A program made the position numbers and the translations under genes. 18,273 nt of DNA, from positions 12,093 to 30,365 of the forward strand of contig PALY01000031.1 in assembly GCA_002707085.1 (NCBI GenBank). Direction: 5' to 3'. The stretch is from Deltaproteobacteria bacterium. GTDB lineage: Bacteria > Myxococcota_A > UBA796. The notes below the pieces were generated by a model that was given only the letters and a program-made list of their open reading frames with translations, made no database searches and was not told where the DNA came from. The stretch's first letter is position 1. Each line of letters starts with the position of its first letter. This document shows positions 6,793 through 18,194 of the stretch, piece by piece.

Positions 6793-7881
6793 TCAGCGTT
6801 GAGTTCGAGTTTCCGGAACCAAATCGACCATAATGGGCGCTCGTTGTTGGCCTGCAGCGTCGAGGATGCGTGTGGCTTGGGCATGCCAGTCGCGCCCAAT
6901 CCATATGTGGTCAAGCGCATGTTGGGGTAGAAAGGGGATGCCCATGTAGTGGTGTGGCCAGTTCGGGTTGGTGCGGACGTCTGACAAGCCGGATGAAACC
7001 AGTGGCAGAGCCACGGCTTGTGCTTGTGCAGGAACTTGAAGGTTTCCCACCAAGATCAGTCGCCGAGTTCCCAAGCTTTGTGCGATGGCTCCGGTCTGAC
7101 TCGCACCAACGGCCACTCTATCTGCCCATGGAAGGAGATCCGCGGGGCCTTCCATTGCATCAAGTCGTACCATCATCAGAGGTACAACCCCGATGTCTGT
7201 GATGTGTGGAAAGCCCAATAGGACCTGAGAACTTCCACCCTGTAAGGCGGGTAGATTGATTTCCCATGTGTCTTCCGAACCACCACAATACTGGAAACTA
7301 CCCCGCACAATGGCCATGATTCCGCCCACGTCTTGGTTCCCTCGAAAGAATTTGGCTTCTCCGTCTAAGGCCGCACTGATTTTATCTCCCAGTTTTGGCG
7401 AGTCTGTTCCGTAGATGACGACAATGTCGGGGCTGTAGGTGAGCAGTGTGTCGATATCGGTGTCGATAGGTTTCTGGGGGTCGATACTCCATGTGAGGAT
7501 GCGGACGGGTCCCGTGACGGGTTTGGGTAAAATCGTACATCCGCGGAGTTCGCGAACCCATTCGGGACTTCCCCCCAATGCTGTATATCGGGTCGTCGGT
7601 TCGTGGATTGCATACCCACCAATGGCCACGGCAAAACCGAAAGCGGTGGCCATGAAGAAGTTTCTGTTCCATACACTCAAGACGACCAGATACAAACCAC
7701 CCGCCAATAGAAGCGGTTCGCCGAGTACGAGTAAAATGCCCAGTGGTTTATCGGCGAACAGCGCGCCAAATGTCAAAACAACCGCGGGCAGACCCGCAAG
7801 AATTAAGGTTTGAGCAAATCGGTGTGTCCACTTGCCGGTTTGCTGGATGTCAGCGCCGTTTTGTTCACCTGTTCTATGCAT
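6793..7881 (-). CDS. Membrane protein with degenerate endonuclease/exonuclease/phosphatase (EEP) domain
   Basis: This is a 362-residue protein with three hydrophobic helices near the N-terminus (about 24-42, 46-70 and 75-93) and a C-terminal domain (about 125-355) that follows the EEP fold order. RILTWSID (127-134) stands for the first strand, PDIVVIYG (151-158) for the second, LVGNLQVP (277-284) where active enzymes have a GDFN-type motif, and LDHIWI (323-328) for the DH motif. The last strand, GQQRAPIMVDL (344-354), stands where SDHxP is normal. Most metal-binding and catalytic residues are replaced: the Asn of strand one by Ser, the Glu of strand two by Gly, Asp-Asn of GDFN by Asn-Gln, and SDH is lost. 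Only the DH pair remains, so it is probably not a working nuclease or phosphatase. It is the last gene of the polyketide operon, overlapping the flavoprotein gene by 8 bases. Confidence 0.65.
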   Translation of the reverse strand: MHRTGEQNGADIQQTGKWTHRFAQTLILAGLPAVVLTFGALFADKPLGILLVLGEPLLLAGGLYLVVLSVWNRNFFMATAFGFAVAIGGYAIHEPTTRYTALGGSPEWVRELRGCTILPKPVTGPVRILTWSIDPQKPIDTDIDTLLTYSPDIVVIYGTDSPKLGDKISAALDGEAKFFRGNQDVGGIMAIVRGSFQYCGGSEDTWEINLPALQGGSSQVLLGFPHITDIGVVPLMMVRLDAMEGPADLLPWADRVAVGASQTGAIAQSLGTRRLILVGNLQVPAQAQAVALPLVSSGLSDVRTNPNWPHHYMGIPFLPQHALDHIWIGRDWHAQATRILDAAGQQRAPIMVDLVPETRTQR

Positions 7882-8914
7882 GGTTCAAGCTGTTGAGAGC
7901 GAAATTGAACAGACTGGGGAATGTTTTCAATGTGGGTACCAGGCGAGAGCGTGTGAAGGGTCGCTCCCGCAGTGTCAGAAGGCCTGAAGTGAGCCACCAG
8001 TAACGGCGTGCAATTCTGCGCCAAGCTTGTTCATATTGGTTCACGTTGTCTGAGGCGATGCATTCTATGGCCGCTTGTGCGGTTTCAAATCCAAGCCGAA
8101 TTCCCTCTCCCGTGATGGGGTCTAAATATCCGGCTGCATCCCCGATGAGGAGAATTCGACCCACGGTTCTTTGGGTGACTCGTTGCTCAAACGGGCCGGC
8201 ACCCATGGGGGCTGTACAGGGCTGACCGAGTCGCTCATATAGCTTGGGGAACGCTTGTATCCAACGGTCCCAAGGGTCCCCTTGTTCAGGAGGATCCGCA
8301 TTTTTGTAATAGAGAATCGCCACGCCAATGGTGTCTTCAGAAATGGGGGTGACGTATGCCTCTGCAGTCGGACTCCAGTGTATTTCCACATATGGACTCC
8401 ATGGCGCGGTTTTGAAGTGACGGCGGATTCCCAGGCGCGGAGGTCGTGTGGGGGTTGCCGTTACGGATAGTTGCCTGCGAACGGATGACTGAAGGCCATC
8501 GGCCGCGATCATCCATTGGCTGCGGACTCCATTGACGGTGACACCATTCTCATCTTGGTTCCAGGATTGAACCCGTTCCTCTCGAATCTCGATACCCAGA
8601 TTTTCCACTCGATGGCGTAAGGCCTGTTGTAGTGTCGTTCGCCGCACCCCAAGGCCAGGCCCCATCGAGAACTGACCTTCAGCCACCGTGTTTCCGTCTA
8701 CATAGCGAATGCCTACGAATGGATAGCCTTCCGGGCGTGGCACATTCATGGTGTCCAGCGCCCGGAGTGTGGGTGGCATCAACCCTTCGCCGCATGCTTT
8801 GTCGATGGGGTTGTTCTTGGGTTCGAAAATGATGGACTGCAGTCCTGCCTGGGCTGCATGAATTGCTGCAGCCAGCCCTGCCGGGCCACCACCAACGATC
8901 ACCACATCAGTCAT
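7874..8914 (-). CDS. FAD-dependent oxidoreductase of the geranylgeranyl reductase/monooxygenase type
   Basis: This is a 346-residue flavoprotein. VVIVGGGPAGLAAAIHAAQ (4-22) is the N-terminal ADP-binding fold, KACGEGLMP (39-47) is typical of the geranylgeranyl reductase-like branch, ADGLQSSVRRQL (138-149) is the DG motif, and IGDAAGYLDPITGEGI (257-272) binds the FAD ribityl chain. No NAD(P) domain is evident beyond the shared fold. In the Streptomyces srsABC operon a flavoprotein hydroxylates the methylated alkylresorcinol. By position, this enzyme would do a similar hydroxylation of the polyketide ring or reduce a double bond (inference). ATG 8914 is chosen over an ATG at 8965 because the FAD motif begins at once after it and it overlaps the ligase stop by only 8 bases. 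Its own stop overlaps the next gene by 8 bases. Confidence 0.85.
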   Translation of the reverse strand: MTDVVIVGGGPAGLAAAIHAAQAGLQSIIFEPKNNPIDKACGEGLMPPTLRALDTMNVPRPEGYPFVGIRYVDGNTVAEGQFSMGPGLGVRRTTLQQALRHRVENLGIEIREERVQSWNQDENGVTVNGVRSQWMIAADGLQSSVRRQLSVTATPTRPPRLGIRRHFKTAPWSPYVEIHWSPTAEAYVTPISEDTIGVAILYYKNADPPEQGDPWDRWIQAFPKLYERLGQPCTAPMGAGPFEQRVTQRTVGRILLIGDAAGYLDPITGEGIRLGFETAQAAIECIASDNVNQYEQAWRRIARRYWWLTSGLLTLRERPFTRSRLVPTLKTFPSLFNFALNSLNHA

Positions 8915-10634
8915 GGTTTGACAGCCTGTGCTGAACTTCTGTCCATGCACTGCGAGCCAACGCACCGGCCAAAAACCAAGGAGTCACACTGTTGGGTGCA
9001 TCCAGTTCGCCCTTGTTCCATTGGCGGAGGGCAAGCCCACGCCGCATTTTTCCGGAGGAGGTTCTCGGCAGTGTCCCTGGCTCCAACGTGATCAGAAGGT
9101 CGGGACTGATTCCTGTGGCAGCACGGATGGCTTGTTGGCACCGTTCCGCAAGATCCTCGGATGGTTGGCCTCTGTATTCTGTGAAGACGATCAACCGTTC
9201 CCCATCAACGGTTGGTTCTCCTACTGCAATGCTGCATCCGGTTCGGATGCCTTCTACCGAATCTAATGGTTGTTCAAACTCGCCCGGGGTGTGGTTGCGC
9301 CCACGAATCACGATGATTTCTTTTGCACGACCAGAAATGTACAACTGGTCATCAAAGATAAAGCCAAGGTCTCCTGTGTCGAGCCATTCACCATCACGAG
9401 GTGGTGGGGTTCCATCGAGGTATTGGTCCATCACTGACGGCCCTTTGACCCAGATTCGTCCAATCTTGTCGGGGGCGGAAAGTTGGCCTTCGTCTGTTCG
9501 GATTTGAACCCCAAATCCGTGTAGTGGTTTTCCTACGCTGGCCAACTCAATTCCATCAGGGCATGGCTTCACTTGATCGGACCTAAGGTCATCACGAGAA
9601 AACTTGGTGGTTGTAAATACATTGGGTAGCGATCCAAAGGTCACTGCCAACGCGGCTTCTGATAGGCCGTAAACAGGAGTCATCGCTTCTTGGCGTAGAC
9701 CCCATTTCTTGAAACGGTTGTAAAAGGAGCGCATGGTTTTGGGTGATGTGGTCTCTGCGCCATTGAGGGCGAACTGCCATGAAGACAGATCACACCCATC
9801 CAGTTCCTCATCCTTTATTCGTTCCACGCACAGATCGTATGCAAAGTTGGGTGCTGGAGCGATCATCCCTTTGTATTTGCTCAATGCCCGCAACCAGATC
9901 GATGGTCTTGCGAGAAATGCTTCGGGGGGGATGAGAACGATAGAAGCTGGAGAAAGAAGGGCAGGAAACACGCATCCGATCAGTCCCATGTCGTGGTACA
10001 GGGGCAGCCAAGAGACCCCACATCGTTCATGGATGTTTTCCTGAGGCAAGCAACTGAGGATGACTTCTGCATTGGCGATGACCTGTTGATGAGTCAAAGC
10101 GACAGGTTTTGGTTGTCCCGTTGTGCCAGATGAAAATTGAACGAGTGCGATGTCGTCGGGTGTGGGTGTATGGGCATCCATCGGGGTGTCTGCCAGAAGT
10201 TTCTCAACGCGATGGATTCCATTTCTTGGGGTGTATCTTTGTAGTACAGCACCCATCAGTTTTCCTGCACGATCATCTGTGACCAAGACGGATGCTTCGA
10301 CCTTCTTCAGCATCAGTGCGGTTTGGTCATAGTACTCTTCTAGGCGTCCAAGACGCACGGGTGGGTACAATGGAACGGGAATAGCATTCATCCAACTACA
10401 GGCGAAGAAAATGTCGGTGAAGTGGGGAGAGGTCGGTAGGACAATCGCTACGGTGTCGCCCGGTCGCACCCCACGATTCCATAGCCCTTGTGCAATTTTT
10501 GCAGCCCGTTCGGCCAGGTCAGGAAAACGGCGAACGGTCTCGGTTTCCCGTCGATCTAGATAGCGGATTCCGGATGTAGAGAGGCCCAAGTCTGCCGCAT
10601 TTTGAAGCGCGTGAAACAGAGTGGAGTTCTTCAT
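8907..10634 (-). CDS. Fatty-acyl-AMP ligase (FAAL-like), carrier-protein loading
   Basis: This is a 575-residue adenylating enzyme of the ANL superfamily. It has the phosphate loop FSSGTTGQPKP (167-177), the WLPLYHDMGLIG segment (209-220) typical of fatty-acyl-AMP ligases, the YGLSEAALA adenine motif (322-330), GDLGF (421-425), GRNHTPGEFE (445-454) and TSSGKMRR (525-532) with the catalytic Lys529. GRNH at the hinge resembles the GRNHYPQDIE signature of fatty-acyl-AMP ligases rather than acyl-CoA ligases, although the second half differs. The gene for an acyl carrier protein lies directly upstream with a 4-base overlap, so the acyl-AMP is probably passed to that carrier's phosphopantetheine. 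It would supply the starter acyl chain for the type III polyketide synthase of the same operon. The chain length accepted cannot be read from the sequence. Confidence 0.9.
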   Translation of the reverse strand: MKNSTLFHALQNAADLGLSTSGIRYLDRRETETVRRFPDLAERAAKIAQGLWNRGVRPGDTVAIVLPTSPHFTDIFFACSWMNAIPVPLYPPVRLGRLEEYYDQTALMLKKVEASVLVTDDRAGKLMGAVLQRYTPRNGIHRVEKLLADTPMDAHTPTPDDIALVQFSSGTTGQPKPVALTHQQVIANAEVILSCLPQENIHERCGVSWLPLYHDMGLIGCVFPALLSPASIVLIPPEAFLARPSIWLRALSKYKGMIAPAPNFAYDLCVERIKDEELDGCDLSSWQFALNGAETTSPKTMRSFYNRFKKWGLRQEAMTPVYGLSEAALAVTFGSLPNVFTTTKFSRDDLRSDQVKPCPDGIELASVGKPLHGFGVQIRTDEGQLSAPDKIGRIWVKGPSVMDQYLDGTPPPRDGEWLDTGDLGFIFDDQLYISGRAKEIIVIRGRNHTPGEFEQPLDSVEGIRTGCSIAVGEPTVDGERLIVFTEYRGQPSEDLAERCQQAIRAATGISPDLLITLEPGTLPRTSSGKMRRGLALRQWNKGELDAPNSVTPWFLAGALARSAWTEVQHRLSNHD

Positions 10635-10867
10635 TGTGAAGCCAGTTTTCCGTGAATCAAACGCACCACATCATTGAGGGTTTCGACTTGTTCTTCATCT
10701 TCTGGATCGAAGCAAATCTCAAAATGGTCTTCTATGGCCACAACAAGTGTGAGCCTCTGTACGCTATCTAAGTTTGCAGCAAGGTCTCCGGTCGGTATGT
10801 CTTCTGCGTGTAGACATTCTTTTTGAATGAGTTCAGAAACTTTGCTTCGGATGCTTTCCTCGGTCAC
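10631..10867 (-). CDS. Acyl carrier protein
   Basis: This is a 78-residue acidic, helical protein with the usual carrier-protein size. The sequence ANLDSVQRLTLVVAIEDHF (31-49) contains the DS motif, so Ser35 is the expected phosphopantetheine site, followed by the acidic recognition helix and a third helix near ETLNDVVRLI. The gene overlaps both neighbours by 4 bases (ATGA): the methyltransferase upstream and the fatty-acyl-AMP ligase downstream. It is thus a dedicated carrier and not the housekeeping AcpP, which normally lies in a fatty-acid synthesis cluster. It probably carries the fatty acyl starter from the ligase to the type III polyketide synthase. A phosphopantetheinyl transferase is not encoded in this window. 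Confidence 0.92.
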   Translation of the reverse strand: MTEESIRSKVSELIQKECLHAEDIPTGDLAANLDSVQRLTLVVAIEDHFEICFDPEDEEQVETLNDVVRLIHGKLASQ

Positions 10868-11388
10868 TTCGACTCCAAAGACTGTAGGGCCTTGTTTTCA
10901 CATCGTATCCGGACTGTGAGCAGAATGGTGTTCAGTATGGTGAAGCCGAGTGCGGTACGCCACGCACCGTGAATCATGGGAAGTGCAATGCCTTCCAGGG
11001 CCACAGCGACGTAGTTTGGATGAGAAAAGAAGCGGTATGGACCACTTCGGACGGCAGCTAAGCCTGGGATCACGATCACCCGTGGGTTCCACCGCCTTCC
11101 CAAGGTTTGAATACACCACCAGCGTAAGCCTTGGCACCCAACCGCCAAAACGAGCATGCTGGTTCCGATGACTGGCATGAAGTCAGGTGAGAACCAGAGG
11201 ACTTCGCCCACGCATGCAAACAGAAAAGCCGTATGGAGTGTCACCATCCATGGCCAATGGCCTTGGCCATGTTCTACGCCACCTTGGGCCAAACTCCATG
11301 CAGTGTTGCGTTTGCCTACAACAAGTTCAACAATGCGTTCGATGGCGGTCAGGCCGATAAAGCCGAAATAGAGCGCTACAGTTCCCAT
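10864..11388 (-). CDS. Isoprenylcysteine-carboxyl-methyltransferase-like O-methyltransferase
   Basis: This is a 174-residue integral membrane methyltransferase with about four hydrophobic segments. The hallmark SGPYRFFSHPNYVAV (115-129), a following LEGIALPMIHGAW and the late RIRCENKAL (160-168) are the S-adenosylmethionine-binding elements of the ICMT family. Small members next to type III polyketide synthases, such as BpsB of Bacillus and SrsB of Streptomyces, methylate the hydroxyl of alkylpyrones or alkylresorcinols; that role fits here. The chosen ATG at 11388 has an AGAAGGG-like ribosome site and begins 5 bases after the synthase stop. The frame is open further upstream to 11553, but that part is basic and merely shadows the synthase gene. 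It overlaps the carrier protein gene by 4 bases. Confidence 0.88.
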   Translation of the reverse strand: MGTVALYFGFIGLTAIERIVELVVGKRNTAWSLAQGGVEHGQGHWPWMVTLHTAFLFACVGEVLWFSPDFMPVIGTSMLVLAVGCQGLRWWCIQTLGRRWNPRVIVIPGLAAVRSGPYRFFSHPNYVAVALEGIALPMIHGAWRTALGFTILNTILLTVRIRCENKALQSLESK

Positions 11389-11393
11389 CGTTT

Positions 11394-12452
11394 CTACCCT
11401 TCTAAGAGAACCAATTCTGAACAGAAACCAGGCCCTAAGGCGAGCAGTAGACCTTTCTCTCCTGGCTTTAGGGCGCAATCGGCCAGTGTTTGTTGAAGCA
11501 CGAACAAGACGCTTGCACTGGATAGATTGCCCACGTTCTTCAAGGAGTCCCAAGTCCGTTTTAGAGCGTTGGGCGGTAACTCCAGGCTTTCTTCAAATGC
11601 CGTCAGAACTTTGGGGCCACCGGGGTGACACACCCATGTCGAAATGTCAGAAATGGTCAGACCGTGGATTTCCAGAAAAGCATCCACATCTGACCGGATG
11701 TGTTGTTTGACGACCTGAGGTACGGACGCGGAGAGAACGATTTTGAAACCAGTATCTTCGATATCCCAGCCCATTACGCGCTCAGTGTCCGGGTAAAATC
11801 GACTTCGGGTTTGGGTGACTTTTGGACCCGTTAGACCCATTGTTTTTGCTTTCGCTTCTCCAATGCCAATCAGGGCTGCAGCCCCGTCTCCAAAGAGTCC
11901 ACTGGCGATCAAGTTTGGAACACTAAGGTCATTTCGCTGGAGAGTGAGCGAACAAAGCTCAACGCTCAATAGGACTGCGATTTGATTGGGGTAGGCCTGT
12001 AAATAATCGTATAGGCGCGCTATCCCTGCTGCACCAGCGACACATCCTAAACCGAACATGGGTGTGCGTTTGATGTCATTTCGAAACCCGACCTTGTTCA
12101 CAAGACGTGCGTCGAGTGATGGTGTAGCGATGCCCGTCACCGTTGTTGTGAATATGGCATCTACGTCGGTGGGTTCAAGTTCGAGTTGGCTGAGCGCACC
12201 AATGATGGCTTTTGCTCCTATTTCCGTACCCACGGAAATAAATGCATTGTTGGCGTCTCCAAGACCTAGGCCTTGGTACTCATCCAGAGGTAAAGCCAAA
12301 TGTCGGCCGCCAACCTGAACTGCTTCATGGAGTCTTTTTAGCCGGTCTGGATTGTGATGCTGATTCGACCAGTGGTGAATAAATTCTGCAATCAACTCGT
12401 CTTGGCTGTAGTGGTGATTTGGTAACGAGCCATGAACGGAAGCGATAATCAT
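11394..12452 (-). CDS. Type III polyketide synthase (alkylresorcinol/alkylpyrone synthase type)
   Basis: This is a 352-residue chalcone/stilbene-synthase-superfamily enzyme, which extends an acyl starter with malonyl units and cyclises the product. The catalytic triad is visible: Cys137 in MFGLGCVAGAAGIAR, His276 in WVCHPGGPKVL and Asn309 in VGNLSSASVLFVL. MGWDIEDTGFKIVLSASVP (228-246) and the C-terminal ALGPGFCSE (near 338-346) also match. The closest named types by pattern are BpsA- and SrsA-like synthases that use long fatty acyl starters. The downstream carrier and ligase genes suggest that the starter is carrier-bound. The ATG at 12452 is preferred to the one at 12485 because MIIASVHGSLP fits the usual N-terminus of the family and no ribosome site precedes 12485. 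It is the first gene of a six-gene operon running to 6793. Confidence 0.93.
   Translation of the reverse strand: MIIASVHGSLPNHHYSQDELIAEFIHHWSNQHHNPDRLKRLHEAVQVGGRHLALPLDEYQGLGLGDANNAFISVGTEIGAKAIIGALSQLELEPTDVDAIFTTTVTGIATPSLDARLVNKVGFRNDIKRTPMFGLGCVAGAAGIARLYDYLQAYPNQIAVLLSVELCSLTLQRNDLSVPNLIASGLFGDGAAALIGIGEAKAKTMGLTGPKVTQTRSRFYPDTERVMGWDIEDTGFKIVLSASVPQVVKQHIRSDVDAFLEIHGLTISDISTWVCHPGGPKVLTAFEESLELPPNALKRTWDSLKNVGNLSSASVLFVLQQTLADCALKPGEKGLLLALGPGFCSELVLLEG
12419..12449 (+). promoter_or_regulatory. Possible promoter for the yceI-like gene
   Basis: TTGGTA at 12419-12424 and GATAAT at 12444-12449 resemble sigma-70 -35 and -10 hexamers (4 and 5 of 6 matches), with a long 19-base spacer. They lie within the first codons of the divergent polyketide synthase gene, so transcription start sites of the two genes would be close together. 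No similarly good promoter for the synthase operon was found in the 57-base gap. This is a weak prediction. Confidence 0.25.
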
Positions 12453-12509
12453 AACGTCTCTGTGATACCCTTTGGATTCATCCATTACGAAGAAATTGGA
12501 GTGATTTTT

Positions 12510-13076
12510 ATGATACGGGTTTTATCAACTCTTTTGTGTTGTGTTGGACTCAGCTTAGGGCAACAGGCAGAAGCTGCGAAGTATACATTTGATCAAAGTG
12601 AAAGCACTCTTACTTTCCATAATTCTGCTTCTCTTCATGAAATCGACGGTGTGGTAAAAAAATTCTCTGGTACTTTTGATTCAGACGCAGGAACGGGCGA
12701 ATTGAAGGTTCAGGCAGCATCACTCACCACGAATCTAGGGCCTCGGGATTCAAAAATGCATTCCTTTTGTTTGGAATCAAGCAACTTTCCAAGCATTACC
12801 TTCAAAGTCACCGGTATTGAGGGGGGCGAAGTCTTAAATTCGGGAGCCAAGAAAGGTCGAGTCAAGCTTACGGGTGCCTTAACGATTCGCGATGTGACCA
12901 AGAATGTGACCCTTTCATCCACATTCACTCGTGTGGGTGACAACCTGCACCTCAACGGGAAGTATGCGTTTAAATGGGGTGACTACAACGTTGCGGATCC
13001 CAGCATCATTATTTCGACGCTCTACCCGGACATGAGCGTGGCTTTCAAAATCGCTCTCAAGCCGGCAGCACAGTAG
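12510..13076 (+). CDS. YceI-family periplasmic lipid-binding protein
   Basis: This is a 188-residue secreted protein of the YceI (lipocalin-like) family, whose members bind polyisoprenoid or other long-chain lipids in a beta-barrel. The signal peptide MIRVLSTLLCCVGLSLGQQAEA is short and hydrophobic, with likely cleavage after AEA near residue 22. The mature part shows the usual pattern: YTFDQSESTLTF, an AASLTTN strand, KMHSFCLESSNFPSITFKVT (usual D-x-LxsxxFFDxxxxP motif in altered form), GALTIRDVTKNVTL and a final VAFKIALKP. ATG 12510 has GGAG at 12498-12501, 8 bases before it; an earlier in-frame ATG at 12432 lies inside the neighbouring gene and would spoil the signal peptide. It is divergent from the polyketide operon with a 57-base gap, so a shared control is possible. 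Confidence 0.9.
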   Translation: MIRVLSTLLCCVGLSLGQQAEAAKYTFDQSESTLTFHNSASLHEIDGVVKKFSGTFDSDAGTGELKVQAASLTTNLGPRDSKMHSFCLESSNFPSITFKVTGIEGGEVLNSGAKKGRVKLTGALTIRDVTKNVTLSSTFTRVGDNLHLNGKYAFKWGDYNVADPSIIISTLYPDMSVAFKIALKPAAQ

Positions 13077-13104
13077 TCCATTCAGTGCAGTGATTGATAC
13101 ATAA

Positions 13105-13140
13105 AACCCATGGTCGTAGCGACAGCGGTTGCCAGGGGTT
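13105..13140 (-). terminator. Candidate hairpin terminator between yceI-like and enoyl-CoA hydratase genes
   Basis: AACCCATGG at 13105-13113 can pair with CCAGGGGTT at 13132-13140, giving 8 of 9 base pairs around an 18-base loop. Read on the minus strand it lies 3 bases past the hydratase stop and is followed by TTATGTAT, so with the two T's of the stem a run of four T's is formed. Read on the plus strand, CATTATAATTTCTT follows. It may serve both convergent genes. The large loop makes it a moderate candidate only. Confidence 0.35.
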
Positions 13141-13142
13141 CA

Positions 13143-13970
13143 TTATAATTTCTTCCGTGGACCCCATTGGACGTCTTCACCGGAAGTGATCGCCTTGAAA
13201 TTGGCTCGGCCAATGGCTGCTTCACCACTATCAACACACAATTCGTATGCCTGCGCTTCCAGTTCTTGTCGGGCGGATTCGTCCATGGTTTGGCTGGATA
13301 GAACGCCTTGTTTGAAAGCTGCCACGGCTGTGGGGGAGCGTCGGGCTGCCAGCTTGGCCAACTCCATGGCTCTGGCCTTCGCGGTGGCCGCATCGGAAGC
13401 CACTTCATCAACCAGTCCTATCCGCAGCGCTTCGTCTGCATCAATTTGTTCGCCGGTCATTCCCAATCTGAGGGCTTGATTGATTCCGACGATCCGTGAG
13501 AGTTCGCTTGTGCCACCGGCTCCGGGAAGGATTCCAATGCCCGTCTCAGGAAGACTGAATCGAGCGTTGGGTGTGGCGATTCGGTAATCCGCAGTAATCA
13601 AAAATTCTGTTCCCCATCCAAGCGCCAGTCCATCGACCAGCGCAATGTGAAATACAGGCGCCTTGCGAAGGGCGGCCAAAGTTCTCCTTTGCCACCGAAC
13701 ATGTTTTTTTACTTCGTCGTCGGTCCAGTCCACTCTTTCGGTCACATCCGCCCCTGCGATGAAGATGGGCGTACCCCGTGAAGTTTGTTTGGTACTCTCT
13801 GTGATGAGGGCGCAAACAGGGCTTGTGTGTAGCGATTGGGTCAGATTCTCCCAGTCGCGCAGTTGTGTTGAACCCATCTCATTCACACGTCCGTGGTTGA
13901 GTGTGAGTTCTAAAATGGAACCGTCAGACGACAGGACAGGGTGGAGAGATTCTAATTCTACAGCAGACAT
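13143..13970 (-). CDS. Enoyl-CoA hydratase/isomerase family protein
   Basis: This 275-residue crotonase-family protein probably acts on enoyl-CoA thioesters in the cytoplasm. The oxyanion-hole segment IFIAGADV (69-76) and the second one DGLALGWGTEFLITADYRIA (113-132) are present, followed by FSLPETGIGILPGAGGTSEL (138-157). By alignment to rat mitochondrial enoyl-CoA hydratase both catalytic glutamates are kept, Glu122 and Glu142, so true hydratase activity is plausible. The middle GGG is GWG here, a minor change. The C-terminal helices match the family length. It stands alone on its strand, convergent with the yceI-like gene and divergent from a small lipoprotein gene. A near-palindrome lies 11 bases upstream of its start. 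The exact substrate is not shown. Confidence 0.9.
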   Translation of the reverse strand: MSAVELESLHPVLSSDGSILELTLNHGRVNEMGSTQLRDWENLTQSLHTSPVCALITESTKQTSRGTPIFIAGADVTERVDWTDDEVKKHVRWQRRTLAALRKAPVFHIALVDGLALGWGTEFLITADYRIATPNARFSLPETGIGILPGAGGTSELSRIVGINQALRLGMTGEQIDADEALRIGLVDEVASDAATAKARAMELAKLAARRSPTAVAAFKQGVLSSQTMDESARQELEAQAYELCVDSGEAAIGRANFKAITSGEDVQWGPRKKL

Positions 13971-13980
13971 GTCCGCGCTC

Positions 13981-13998
13981 TAACCGGCATGCAGGTTA
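13981..13998. promoter_or_regulatory. Near-perfect 18-base palindrome, candidate operator
   Basis: TAACC-G-GCATGC-A-GGTTA matches its reverse complement at 16 of 18 positions, with a central perfect GCATGC. It sits in the 58-base gap between the divergent enoyl-CoA hydratase and cysteine-rich lipoprotein genes, where a dimeric repressor could control one or both. TetR-type regulators of fatty-acid degradation genes use operators of similar form, but no such regulator is encoded in this window. Confidence 0.4.
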
Positions 13999-14028
13999 TG
14001 GGGAAACACCGAAAGTGCGGAGGGTTCA

Positions 14029-14484
14029 ATGCGCTTCTTAGTTTTGATGGTTTCTATGGCTTGTTTTACTGGCTGCGCGTCTCTAGATGGGGACTGGAGC
14101 GGCGAGATGGAATGTAGAAGTACAGATGGTGAAATTGAAGCTTGGAAATCTGAATTTGTTGTTGAAAAAAATGAGTACGAAGAGACTGTTTTTACGGGAA
14201 CGGTCATAGAAGCGCTTGAATGTACAGCAGATGGAGACCAAGAGATTAGCTGCGACTTTGTGATGGAAGGCTACTTGCATCCCAGAAAACCATCAGGGAA
14301 ACAGCGCGTCGATGTGGATGTGGACCGTTGTATCGCTGATGGCGGAATGAGTGGTTCCACAGGTTTTGGTTGTGAAGATCCCACTTGGGCTGAATGGGAT
14401 GGCCGCAATGAATTCAAGATTGGCAGCGCGGAAATTCCGCTTAGCGTTGGTGATGATTCCTGCATGATCGTTTTAGGCCGGTAA
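14029..14484 (+). CDS. Small cysteine-rich lipoprotein of unknown function
   Basis: This is a 151-residue protein that I do not recognise. A signal peptide ends in CFTGC, with Cys16 as the probable lipidated residue. The mature part is acidic and looks beta-rich. It has six further cysteines (29, 65, 75, 101, 115 and 145), enough for three disulfides in the periplasm or on the cell surface. GDWSGEMEC at its start recalls small beta-barrel domains with a GxWxG opening, but no family can be named. GGAGG at 14019-14023 stands 5 bases before the ATG. The glpD gene follows after 18 bases, so the two are probably co-transcribed, but no link to glycerol metabolism is visible. Confidence 0.75.
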   Translation: MRFLVLMVSMACFTGCASLDGDWSGEMECRSTDGEIEAWKSEFVVEKNEYEETVFTGTVIEALECTADGDQEISCDFVMEGYLHPRKPSGKQRVDVDVDRCIADGGMSGSTGFGCEDPTWAEWDGRNEFKIGSAEIPLSVGDDSCMIVLGR

Positions 14485-14502
14485 CTGTAGACGGAGCGCG
14501 CG

Positions 14503-16158
14503 ATGGAGCGTCGAGACAATACAGCGTTGCAGGATACTCACTTTGACCTACTGATCATTGGTGGTGGTATTACCGGTGCAGGTGCGGCTCGCGATGCGGC
14601 ACGTCGGGGACTTAGTGTGCTGGTTGTCGACCAAGGCGATGTTGCGAGCGGTACATCATCACGTTCATCAAAGCTGGTTCATGGTGGGTTGCGGTACTTG
14701 GAGCAGGGCGAAGTTGCTTTGGTGTTTGAGGCCGTTGCGGAACGCTGGGTCCTTCAAACCATAGCGCCCCACCTTGTGCAGCCCATGCCCTTTTTGTTTC
14801 CCATTTATGATGACTACAGGATGGGGCTGTTTACGATTAATATCGGGATGTGGATTTACGATGCGTTGAGCTTGTTTCGCTCCCCTAAGATCCACAAGAA
14901 ATTGTCTCAGAAAAAGGTCGCGATTGTAGAGCCTGGATTGTTGTCAGAGGGTCTTCAAGGCGCCCCCTTGTACTACGATTGTGCGACCGACGATGCTCGG
15001 CTGACACTGGAAACCATTTTGGATGCGGAGTGTTCTGGGGCGCAAATTCGAACCCATACCCGCGTGACGAAACTTCTTCGCAAAGACGGAAGAGTCTCTG
15101 GTGCTAAGCTGGAAGATCAGTTGACGGGCGAAGCGGCTGAAGTTTCGGCCAGTGTTGTGATCAATGCGACGGGTCCTTGGACTGATTGGACCCGAAGATT
15201 GTCAGGTGAGGAAGTTCGGCCAAGTCTACGTCCGACCAAGGGGATTCACATCGTGGTGAATGCCTCTCGTTTTTCGGTCAATCATGCCGTGGTTTGCTTG
15301 CATCCTGATGATGGTCGCGTTCTTTTCGCTGTGCCGTGGGGAGAGCAAACCTATGTTGGCACCACAGACACCGACTTTGAGGGTGACCCCAATGAGGTTT
15401 GTGCCGACCATTCGGATGTCAAGTACATCATTGAAGCTACCAATACGTTCTTTCCTGATGCAGGATTATCGCTGGATGATGTCGTTTCGACCTGGGCGGG
15501 TGTTCGACCATTGATCAGTGAAGATGGTGCTGAAGATGAGTCCAGTGTCTCTCGTGAACATGAGATTTACCTTTCCGATGATGGGATGATCACAATCGCG
15601 GGTGGCAAGTTGACCACCTACCGAAGAATGGGTGCAGAGGTAGTCCGGAAAGCCGTGGCCGTTCTCAAAGAACTTGAGTTGCTGCCAGACACCTTGCGGT
15701 CTTCCGATACGCAGAAAAACCCTCTTCCGGGGGCTGTGAGTTGGCCCGCTTCAGGTGGCTTGGACACGCTCGTTCAGCAGGTGGTCGAGATCGGAGAAGG
15801 TCAGATTGATGAGCGGACTGCAAAGTTACTGAGCGACACTTATGGAACACGCAGCCTGCATATAGCAGAGCAAGTGAGCGCAGCTCATGCGTTGGGTGAG
15901 CCATTAATTGAAGGTCGTCCTGAGATCGCTGGTCAAGTCGAATTTGCGGTGAATTCCGAACTCGCTCGGACGGTGAGCGATGTCATGATTCGCCGTACAC
16001 AGTTGTTCTATCGTGATGCCGATCAGGGGCTTGGTGCAGTCGATAAAGTCGCTGCACAGATGGCCGGTATGTTGAATTGGACTCCAGAACAAACCCAGAA
16101 AAATGTATCGGAATACCGGGCTGAAGTAGAAAGGAGTCGCTGTTGGCGAACCGGTTGA
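14503..16158 (+). CDS. glpD: FAD-dependent glycerol-3-phosphate dehydrogenase
   Basis: GlpD oxidises sn-glycerol 3-phosphate to dihydroxyacetone phosphate at the inner membrane and passes electrons to quinones. The 551 residues have the full family pattern: FAD-binding LLIIGGGITGAGAARDAARR (16-35), the signature SGTSSRSSKLVHGGLRYLE (49-67), INATGPWTDW (220-229), RPTKGIHIV (243-251), WAGVRPL (331-337) and AGGKLTTYRR (366-375), with a C-terminal helical domain containing an RRTQLFYRD-type segment. Its length is normal. GGAG at 14493-14496 precedes the ATG by 6 bases. No glpF or glpK is adjacent. Its last 16 bases overlap the start of the next gene, so the downstream genes are probably in the same transcript. 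Confidence 0.95.
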   Translation: MERRDNTALQDTHFDLLIIGGGITGAGAARDAARRGLSVLVVDQGDVASGTSSRSSKLVHGGLRYLEQGEVALVFEAVAERWVLQTIAPHLVQPMPFLFPIYDDYRMGLFTINIGMWIYDALSLFRSPKIHKKLSQKKVAIVEPGLLSEGLQGAPLYYDCATDDARLTLETILDAECSGAQIRTHTRVTKLLRKDGRVSGAKLEDQLTGEAAEVSASVVINATGPWTDWTRRLSGEEVRPSLRPTKGIHIVVNASRFSVNHAVVCLHPDDGRVLFAVPWGEQTYVGTTDTDFEGDPNEVCADHSDVKYIIEATNTFFPDAGLSLDDVVSTWAGVRPLISEDGAEDESSVSREHEIYLSDDGMITIAGGKLTTYRRMGAEVVRKAVAVLKELELLPDTLRSSDTQKNPLPGAVSWPASGGLDTLVQQVVEIGEGQIDERTAKLLSDTYGTRSLHIAEQVSAAHALGEPLIEGRPEIAGQVEFAVNSELARTVSDVMIRRTQLFYRDADQGLGAVDKVAAQMAGMLNWTPEQTQKNVSEYRAEVERSRCWRTG

Positions 16159-18194
16159 ACCGGCTGCGCCAGCGTCTTCTGGCTCCCAAAGTGGAGCAGA
16201 CGGCAGCCTGCGCACGCGCACTGACGGGGCTGTTGGGGCGCATGCCAGCAATTGAAGTGTTGCCGGCGCAGCAGATGACGCGAGCGACTCTTACGGGTGA
16301 AGTGTTGCGGTCTCAAAACCCAGTGCCTTGGCCTGCTGGAATGATGAGACAGCTTGATCCGGCCGATCCAGCCTTTTTACCACCCATGGGACTCCATCCA
16401 GTGTTGGCGGGTAGGGATCGCACATTGGTGGGAATTCCAGGCCGAAAGGGTGTGGCTTGGGTCGATCCGCTTGGTTGGTGTGGCGTGGGTTTGGGACCCA
16501 CGGTGTCGGTGTGGTTCGGCGAGGGGCGCGATGGCTGCGTTGTCGGTCGAGTCCCCGGTCAGCCTGGTGATTTGACGGACGTGGTTCATCAGCGTCGTGG
16601 CGATGATGGGCTAAGCGTTGTGACCAGCTTTACGCGCGGAGTACTCACGCTCACGATGCATCACTGGCCGGTGGTTTTACAAGGCCAAGTGGCTTGGGTG
16701 TTGTACGCGAAGCTGGAGTTGGGTGGGCCTGCACCTCGTCCAGTGCGGCTGGCGTTTGCTATTCGTCCCGCATGCAATGAAGGTGCAACTCCAGTATTTG
16801 AACTCAACCGTGATAAGGAAGGTCTATGGACCGCGGATGGGACGCCGATCTTGGCCGTATCCAGGCATGGAGATGAAATTCTACAGGGCGCTCATGGTCG
16901 TGCAGATCCATTTCATCGATTCTCCGGCCTGGTTCATTCGGGGGCGCCCACCATGTCGGGCAACGTTCACATCCGGTGTCCTGCGGGTCAAGCGACGGCT
17001 GCAGAGGTGTATCGCACCACGATGACCCCAGGTGAACCATTCAGCCGGTTCGTTGTGTTGCAGCCTCCACCGAACACGCCGTCGACGTTGATGCGCACTA
17101 CGGGCCAAAGCTTATGGTCAGGCGCGTTGGCCGACAGGCGTGGAGTATTGGCATCGGGCGCCAAGTTTCAACTTGAACGACATGATGATCTCTTTGTTGC
17201 ATGTAGACAGCGAATCCTGTTGGATACTGGAGAAACCGGTGTGGCCGGTTTGCTTGCAGCAGTGGCCTTGGCTCGAATGGGTTTCGTTCGGCGCGCAGGA
17301 ACACGTCTGTCCGGGTGGATGAATCGAGTGCGTCGGGATGGGACATTGCCGGCTGAAGACCCAGCAGACGCAGCAATGTTGGCCTGGGCTGCATCTGAAT
17401 TTGTTCGATGGACACAAGATGCGGGTTGGCGGGATGAAAACCTTGGTGCTTGGAGACGCTTATTAAATCGTTTGGTCGATGATCCTGGAGAGCCGGGAGG
17501 CCGCTTGTTTTTTGGTGCTGATGGCTCCGGTCGGTGGACCGCGCTTTGGCGTACGGCGGCACTGTTGGGTTCTTCTGTTCAATTGCGAAGTGTGGACCCT
17601 TCTCACAATCAGTGGGCGTTGGCGGGTGGGCAGGCTCGGGAGGCACTCAGCAGTTTATTGGGTGACGCACCTTGGTCTGCTGCGCCGGGAAGAGTTCCCA
17701 ATGGTGCAGCAGCGGCCATGTTGGCGGTCGCTTGGGTTGGCATCATCGATGTGCGAAACCCGGACGTGCTGGAAACCATGGCACATGTCAAAGACAAACA
17801 CTGCCATGGTGGTGGAGTCTTTCTTCATGGTGGCGCTCATCCCGCTGCAACGGCACTCCTATCGGTTGTGGCTGAACGTGCGGAGCCGACAATGGCGGAC
17901 CCCATCGATGTTTTGGCGGCACTCGCTTCGCCGACGGGAGCAATTCCAACCGCTGTTCATCCTACGCGCGGAGCGCTTGTAGAGGGGGATGATCTTCTTT
18001 CAGCATCTATGTTTGCCTTGATGGCTTTAGACCGGGTTCGCGCGTCACGAGACAGCATCACCATACTTCCTGATCTTGTTTCCGCCCGGGAACTTCCAAC
18101 CCCATTTGGGCGAATCGATGTAGTGGATGGTCAGGTAATGGGTAAGTGGATCGGAAAGAAACCTCGGGTCATTATTGCTGGAGAGGAGGAGTAA
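16143..18194 (+). CDS. Large protein with six-hairpin (alpha/alpha toroid) glycosidase-like architecture, function unknown
   Basis: This is a 683-residue protein without signal peptide or clear membrane segment. It begins at a TTG with a strong AAGGAG site 6 bases upstream, inside the 3' end of glpD (16-base overlap). Residues about 40-320 look strand-rich, as in the N-terminal beta-sandwich of alpha/alpha-toroid glycoside hydrolases. Residues about 360-635 are helical repeats with phrases such as ETGVAGLLAAVALARMGF and MLAWAASEFVRWTQDAGW, which recall the hairpins of amylo-1,6-glucosidase or rhamnosidase-like enzymes. A short C-terminal strand block (about 638-679) with LPTPFGRIDVVDGQV also fits that layout. 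No catalytic acid pair can be assigned with confidence. The assignment is by pattern only and could be wrong. The GMC-type gene follows with a 1-base overlap. Confidence 0.6.
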   Translation: MANRLNRLRQRLLAPKVEQTAACARALTGLLGRMPAIEVLPAQQMTRATLTGEVLRSQNPVPWPAGMMRQLDPADPAFLPPMGLHPVLAGRDRTLVGIPGRKGVAWVDPLGWCGVGLGPTVSVWFGEGRDGCVVGRVPGQPGDLTDVVHQRRGDDGLSVVTSFTRGVLTLTMHHWPVVLQGQVAWVLYAKLELGGPAPRPVRLAFAIRPACNEGATPVFELNRDKEGLWTADGTPILAVSRHGDEILQGAHGRADPFHRFSGLVHSGAPTMSGNVHIRCPAGQATAAEVYRTTMTPGEPFSRFVVLQPPPNTPSTLMRTTGQSLWSGALADRRGVLASGAKFQLERHDDLFVACRQRILLDTGETGVAGLLAAVALARMGFVRRAGTRLSGWMNRVRRDGTLPAEDPADAAMLAWAASEFVRWTQDAGWRDENLGAWRRLLNRLVDDPGEPGGRLFFGADGSGRWTALWRTAALLGSSVQLRSVDPSHNQWALAGGQAREALSSLLGDAPWSAAPGRVPNGAAAAMLAVAWVGIIDVRNPDVLETMAHVKDKHCHGGGVFLHGGAHPAATALLSVVAERAEPTMADPIDVLAALASPTGAIPTAVHPTRGALVEGDDLLSASMFALMALDRVRASRDSITILPDLVSARELPTPFGRIDVVDGQVMGKWIGKKPRVIIAGEEE

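Follow-up and report, generated by a model that had tools for sequence, protein, structure and literature searches.

The srsABC system of Streptomyces griseus and the pkqABC system of Mycobacterium smegmatis use acyl-CoA starters for their type III polyketide synthase (PKS). BpsAB of Bacillus combines a type III PKS with an ICMT-type methyltransferase; to our knowledge, it contains no fatty-acyl-AMP ligase (FAAL), acyl carrier protein (ACP) or oxidoreductase. In the cylindrocyclophane (cyl) pathway, priming by a FAAL and an ACP takes place ahead of a type III PKS, but a halogenase and type I PKSs intervene. The alkylresorcylic-acid cluster of Myxococcus xanthus, with the synthase FtpA, is described with a type III PKS, a methyltransferase, an AMP-dependent synthetase (FAAL) and a monooxygenase (PMC5006271). 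A six-gene operon in an 18,273-nt stretch of DNA from a Deltaproteobacteria bacterium (the window) was compared with these systems. The operon was read as an M. xanthus-type, fatty-acid-primed type III PKS cassette following the route proposed below, with its sixth gene, encoding an EEP-like protein that has lost most catalytic residues (pseudo-EEP), outside the conserved pathway; a probability of about 0.77 is assigned to this reading.

All coordinates are those of the window, which is part of contig C31 in an assembly of 165 contigs and 3.87 Mb (72% complete). The six genes occupy positions 6793–12452 of one strand (minus):

11394..12452, minus strand: type III PKS, 352 aa; Pfam Chal_sti_synt_C, 8e-21; closest solved relative Pks11
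10864..11388, minus strand: ICMT-type membrane methyltransferase, 174 aa; Pfam ICMT, 6e-25
10631..10867, minus strand: ACP, 78 aa, GTG start; Pfam PP-binding, 1.5e-4, barely past the cut-off
8907..10634, minus strand: FAAL, 575 aa; Pfam AMP-binding, 1e-59
7874..8914, minus strand: FAD-dependent oxidoreductase, 346 aa, with GGGPAG and GDAAG motifs; Pfam FAD_binding_3, 1e-20
6793..7881, minus strand: membrane-anchored pseudo-EEP protein, 362 aa; assigned from relatives with PF03372 and the predicted fold

The PKS and ICMT genes are separated by a 5-base gap, the ICMT/ACP and ACP/FAAL junctions are overlaps of 4 bases each, and the FAAL/FAD and FAD/EEP-like junctions are overlaps of 8 bases each. 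A first-pass annotation had described a tightly packed one-strand operon; its coordinates and all five junctions could be reproduced from the open reading frame (ORF) list and the sequence, and Pfam backed five of the six genes. Since neither promoter-like sites (2 against a shuffle mean of 4.3) nor terminator-like sites (8 against a shuffle mean of 6.2, sd 3.0) showed a clear excess over shuffles, a single transcript is inferred from the gene spacing.

The order PKS-ICMT-ACP-FAAL-FAD is common to the window and Acidobacteria bacterium Mor1 (CP011806.1; locus L097), with identities of 58% for the PKS, 49% for the ICMT-type enzyme, 42% for the ACP, 48% for the FAAL and 42% for the FAD protein; the 8 kb read after the Mor1 PKS contained no EEP gene. 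The Mor1 type III PKS cluster has been reported to match the alkylresorcylic-acid pathway of M. xanthus DZF1 in identity and organisation, citing Hayashi et al. 2011, with 58% identity for the synthase, 54% for the methyltransferase, 54% for the AMP-dependent synthetase and 47% for the monooxygenase; the passages concerned do not name the ACP, and report that alkylresorcylic acid was not detected in the consortium extract (PMC5006271). In a review of FAALs, alkylresorcylic acid (C18:0) is entered with 'in vitro data', again with Hayashi 2011 as the source (PMC11837247). Secondary statements describe FtpA as taking malonyl- and methylmalonyl-CoA (PMC5916927) and its products as being oxidised to alkylquinones by M. 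xanthus (PMC10896814). An M. xanthus FAAL-ACP pair has been tested as well, which the relevant part of the source does not state to be the alkylresorcylic-acid pair (PMC8460268). The five-gene core is not new, and the window holds a further copy of a known bacterial gene set that makes oily phenolic or quinone lipids from fatty acids. The suggestion that the operon may be an undescribed lipid pathway was rejected for this core, because the gene order recurs widely and matches the M. xanthus pathway through Mor1. Compared with the M. xanthus cluster, the pseudo-EEP gene is the window's own.

Homologues of the PKS, ICMT-type and FAD genes, with the ICMT gene adjoining the PKS gene, were also clustered in loci of the srsABC/pkqABC type from two Streptomyces (L129, L146) and one Mycobacterium (L130), at 52–55%, 55–57% and 42–44% identity to the window, respectively. 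These loci contained no FAAL or ACP, whereas in the window the two genes stand between the methyltransferase and the oxidoreductase; thus, the window does not carry a three-gene operon of this type, although the three common enzymes are homologous. The precedents named in the first-pass annotation (srsABC, BpsAB and cylindrocyclophane) each resemble the window in part, but the M. xanthus pathway is closer.

The recurrence of the cassette was examined in 133 loci, comprising 33 from relatives and the own genome, the 80 best of 140 in the named collection, and 20 of the 23 phylum matches outside the order (G185, G270 and G280 left out). These gave 124 distinct PKSs, a biased sample picked by PKS similarity. 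Order was scored on the same strand and within 9 kb downstream of the PKS, contiguity not being required. The full order PKS-ICMT-ACP-FAAL-FAD was present in 43 of the 124 distinct loci, so the run of genes is not a chance arrangement. ICMT-ACP-FAAL followed the PKS in 15 loci, 10 of them on short contigs; ACP-FAAL without ICMT, with or without FAD, was seen in 4, and another or truncated arrangement in 32. The EEP gene came next in 3 of the 43.

FAAL-bearing loci came from Deltaproteobacteria, Acidobacteriota/Thermoanaerobaculia, a Pseudomonadales metagenome-assembled genome, Acidimicrobiia and Chloroflexi. Among the 26 ICMT-FAD loci without FAAL in the named collection, 21 were actinobacterial, two were from Labilithrix, and one each was from Spirochaetaceae, Acidobacteria and a further bacterium. 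Within the 58-genome sample of the order, a close PKS (E ≤ 1e-120) was found in 32 genomes. The own genome carries a second complete PKS-ICMT-ACP-FAAL-FAD cassette (L065, G000:C51:23500-43400, at about 9436–14400), with identities to the window of 48% (PKS), 40% (ICMT), 28% (ACP), 44% (FAAL) and 34% (FAD). Its third type III PKS, on C10, is a distant one. The search for a Myxococcus-like genome yielded a PKS at 49–50% identity in 3/10 genomes of the family of G203, whose loci (L195-L197) show PKS-ICMT only. On a FastTree phylogeny of 125 synthases, with local support values only and one very long branch (L066), the FAAL label required 10 changes among rows of known state; a single origin of the FAAL cassette was therefore rejected, and repeated gain or loss of FAAL is indicated. 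These results suggest that the FAAL-primed five-gene cassette is widespread among uncultured lineages, delta-proteobacterial and acidobacterial ones included, and that it alternates with the FAAL-less polyketide-quinone operon. For type III phenolic lipids, priming from acyl-CoA may thus have a recurrent alternative in the direct activation of fatty acids.

Assessment of the individual enzymes revealed Pks11 as the closest solved chain to the window PKS (1.1e-110), CylI being more distant (3.8e-54). The catalytic triad of Cys137, His276 and Asn309 was present, together with Trp229 at a position linked to resorcinol formation. The triad was kept in all 111 synthases whose FAAL status is known (63 with FAAL, the window counted, and 48 without; 14 of undetermined status were excluded), and the Trp was kept in 110. 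The sole exception was the L058 synthase (genome G017), which carries Leu and whose product might differ. The ligase matched the NCBIfam fatty acyl-AMP ligase subfamily at 1.1e-117, under the cut-off of that model, and its best solved match was the fatty acyl-adenylate ligase 3PBK (1.9e-80); since its best solved and curated matches are FAALs, it is predicted to be a FAAL and not an acyl-CoA ligase. The probable phosphopantetheine site of the ACP is Ser35 (D-S-V). A sequence search found no solved relative of the ICMT-type methyltransferase. The FAD protein is assigned a putative hydroxylase or oxidase role by homology with the three-gene operons of Streptomyces and Mycobacterium (PMC9927152).

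The genes, their order, the kept catalytic residues and the wide conservation are observed, and each chemical step is modelled on characterised relatives. The FAAL would adenylate a free long-chain fatty acid and load it on the dedicated ACP. The synthase may then take the acyl chain from the ACP, and perhaps from acyl-CoA too, and extend it with malonyl- or methylmalonyl-CoA, with cyclisation to an alkylresorcinol or alkylresorcylic acid. O-methylation of the ring would fall to the ICMT-type enzyme, and its oxidation towards a methoxy-alkylbenzoquinone or hydroquinone to the FAD enzyme. The earlier proposal of FAAL-to-ACP-to-synthase transfer followed by methylation and oxidation agrees with the gene identities, the gene order and the precedent.

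Several observations speak against this route or against placing the pseudo-EEP outside it. Passage of the chain through the ACP need not be obligatory, because PKS-ICMT-FAD without FAAL or ACP, as in srsABC, was present in 30 of the 124 distinct loci and FtpA is described with long-chain acyl-CoA starters (PMC5916927). The likeness to M. xanthus runs through the published Mor1 match and not through a direct sequence comparison. The FAD step is uncertain, since the best NCBIfam match of the protein is the geranylgeranyl-reductase superfamily, under the cut-off, and solved structures matched it only weakly (best 5.8e-13) and were of mixed kinds, halogenases and monooxygenases. The overlap of the EEP gene with the FAD gene, and its position next to the cassette in G001, G036 and G007 too, could mean a real link; the G036 match contains one in-frame TAG. 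Finally, Pks11, the closest solved relative of the synthase, is named an alpha-pyrone enzyme.

The last point raises the possibility that the operon chiefly makes an alkylpyrone, or the corresponding methyl ether, and not a resorcinol or quinone, and a type III PKS alkylpyrone cluster has been reported as conserved across many genera of Myxococcota (PMC12766979). Trp229, numbered 230 in PMC5916927, matches the Trp reported in the resorcinol-forming ArsB, FtpA, SrsA, PKS10 and PKS11, and the co-conserved FAD oxidoreductase suits oxidation of a resorcinol. Since the same Trp occurs in PKS11, which is named a pyrone enzyme too, this residue is suggestive of a resorcinol and by itself compatible with pyrones. 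On balance, we regard the alkylpyrone as an unlikely main product, though one to be kept in mind beside the resorcinol-quinone route.

The sixth protein had no significant Pfam or family match of its own, and the family profile matched no EEP among the solved-structure sequences. The EEP assignment comes from its relatives, which carry PF03372, and from a predicted EEP fold. In the model of the window protein, N-terminal membrane helices are followed by an EEP-fold domain at about residues 123–361, the layout of VanJ-type membrane EEP proteins. Unlike those proteins, the window family has most catalytic residues replaced. In the window protein, Asn is replaced by Ser132, Glu by Gly158, GDxN by GNLQ and SDH by QQR. 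Across the 41 aligned family rows, the catalytic Glu position held Glu in none and Gly in 37, the GDxN Asn was lost in 41, the motif-1 Asn was lost in 40, and the catalytic His was Arg in 39; L180 and L181 were two single-row exceptions to these losses. Cys115 and Cys199 were kept in 41/41 rows. The motif mapping was based on MAFFT alignments, because hhalign of the EEP alignment against two EEPs of the own genome gave short, weak matches only (E 0.12 and 0.068); of the four control EEPs, one (L216) aligned wrongly over motifs 1 and 2 and lends no support to the mapping of these two. An EEP of the own genome (L217, G000:C110), whose catalytic motifs are intact and whose N-terminal part has hydrophobic stretches, provides a natural control. 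Because most EEP catalytic residues are gone, the protein is unlikely to act as a hydrolytic step of the pathway, and this role was rejected with L180 and L181 noted as exceptions.

The phylum sample of 377 genomes gave a pseudo-EEP homologue in 27, every one in the window's order; absences in this survey are soft, because at most five candidates were scored per genome and many assemblies are incomplete. In the order sample, 26 genomes carry the EEP gene and 32 gave no match to it; a close PKS was present in 15 of the former and 17 of the latter (Fisher P 0.79). The presence of the EEP is thus independent of the PKS, and the pseudo-EEP is probably not a required enzyme. The extra membrane component of the first-pass annotation is therefore present and overlaps the FAD gene, but its family was seen only in the order among the genomes sampled, lies mostly away from the cassette and has mostly lost its catalytic residues. 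Probably, it is co-transcribed in this lineage without being a conserved part of the pathway, and a non-catalytic binding or envelope role of the predicted periplasmic protein is the best guess. In the survey of EEP neighbours (L038, L053 and L175-L192), which included many spurious antisense ORFs, 15 of 21 loci had an ORF homologous to a protein-kinase ORF in the vicinity of the EEP gene. Five neighbours were scanned and gave three protein kinases (L038, L183, L185), one transglycosylase and one without a match. The family offers a modest example, open to testing, of an enzyme fold that has lost catalysis and in a few genomes lies next to a lipid pathway.

Instead, the pseudo-EEP could truly belong to the pathway, as a non-catalytic periplasmic protein that was recruited in this lineage and binds the phenolic lipid or helps to export it. 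Its 8-base overlap with the FAD gene, the adjoining position in three further genomes, the membrane helices of the model, the two invariant cysteines and a YceI gene divergent from the operon are consistent with such a role. That gene is:

12510..13076, plus strand: YceI-family protein, apparent signal peptide; divergent neighbour, possible accessory gene

Against this, 11 of the 26 EEP-bearing genomes lack a close PKS, the 17 PKS-bearing genomes without an EEP match include the same-genus G002 and the same-family G003 (where the 3.2 kb after the FAD gene held no EEP), and 18 other fetched EEP loci had no cassette gene above 40 bits nearby. True membership is accordingly considered doubtful. 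More speculative still is a fuller version, in which a periplasmic pseudo-EEP family, seen in this survey only in one order of the window's phylum, turned from an enzyme into a non-catalytic lipid-binding or scaffold protein, was built into the operon here and, together with YceI, carries the product to the outer envelope. An active, VanJ-like phosphodiesterase on a lipid-phosphate substrate is highly improbable, given the near or full loss of the Glu, both Asn residues and the His over the 41 rows and the intact-motif EEPs elsewhere in the own genome.

It is scarcely credible that the quinone of the operon is the main respiratory quinone: polyketide quinones reportedly carry electrons in Mycobacterium and Streptomyces (PMC5916927, PMC9927152) and none of the four genomes of the organism's taxonomic family gave a match to the futalosine-route PF02621 (MqnA/MqnD), but the own genome has menD over the cut-off with an adjoining UbiA-family gene (G000:C133:1124-3615), and a close PKS was about equally common with PF02621 (24/45) and without it (8/13). 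With menD present and the PKS not tied to the absence of PF02621, this role was not supported. Neither PF02621 nor menD was found in G005 (97% complete), G014 or G038, and G001 gave a weak menD-like match only. The quinone of the cassette, if made, is unlikely to be the organism's only one, because of the menD and UbiA-family genes.

The YceI gene starts 57 bases from the PKS start, with starts as chosen here. Of the 124 distinct loci, 15 (one of them with a weak match) have a YceI gene around the PKS; it is the directly divergent neighbour in 5, on the same strand in 6 and elsewhere in 4; in some loci, it follows the FAD gene on the same strand. A gene for a lipid- or isoprenoid-binding protein has been reported in one planctomycetal type III PKS operon (PMC10896814). 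As a candidate envelope partner, the YceI protein ranks no lower than the EEP protein. Further along, window positions 13143–18194 encode an enoyl-CoA hydratase, a DAO-family FAD protein and a 683-aa protein without a Pfam match; in G036 homologues of these, minus the DAO gene, lie on the same side of the cassette, and in G001, G002, G003 and G007 the homologues are likewise placed there.

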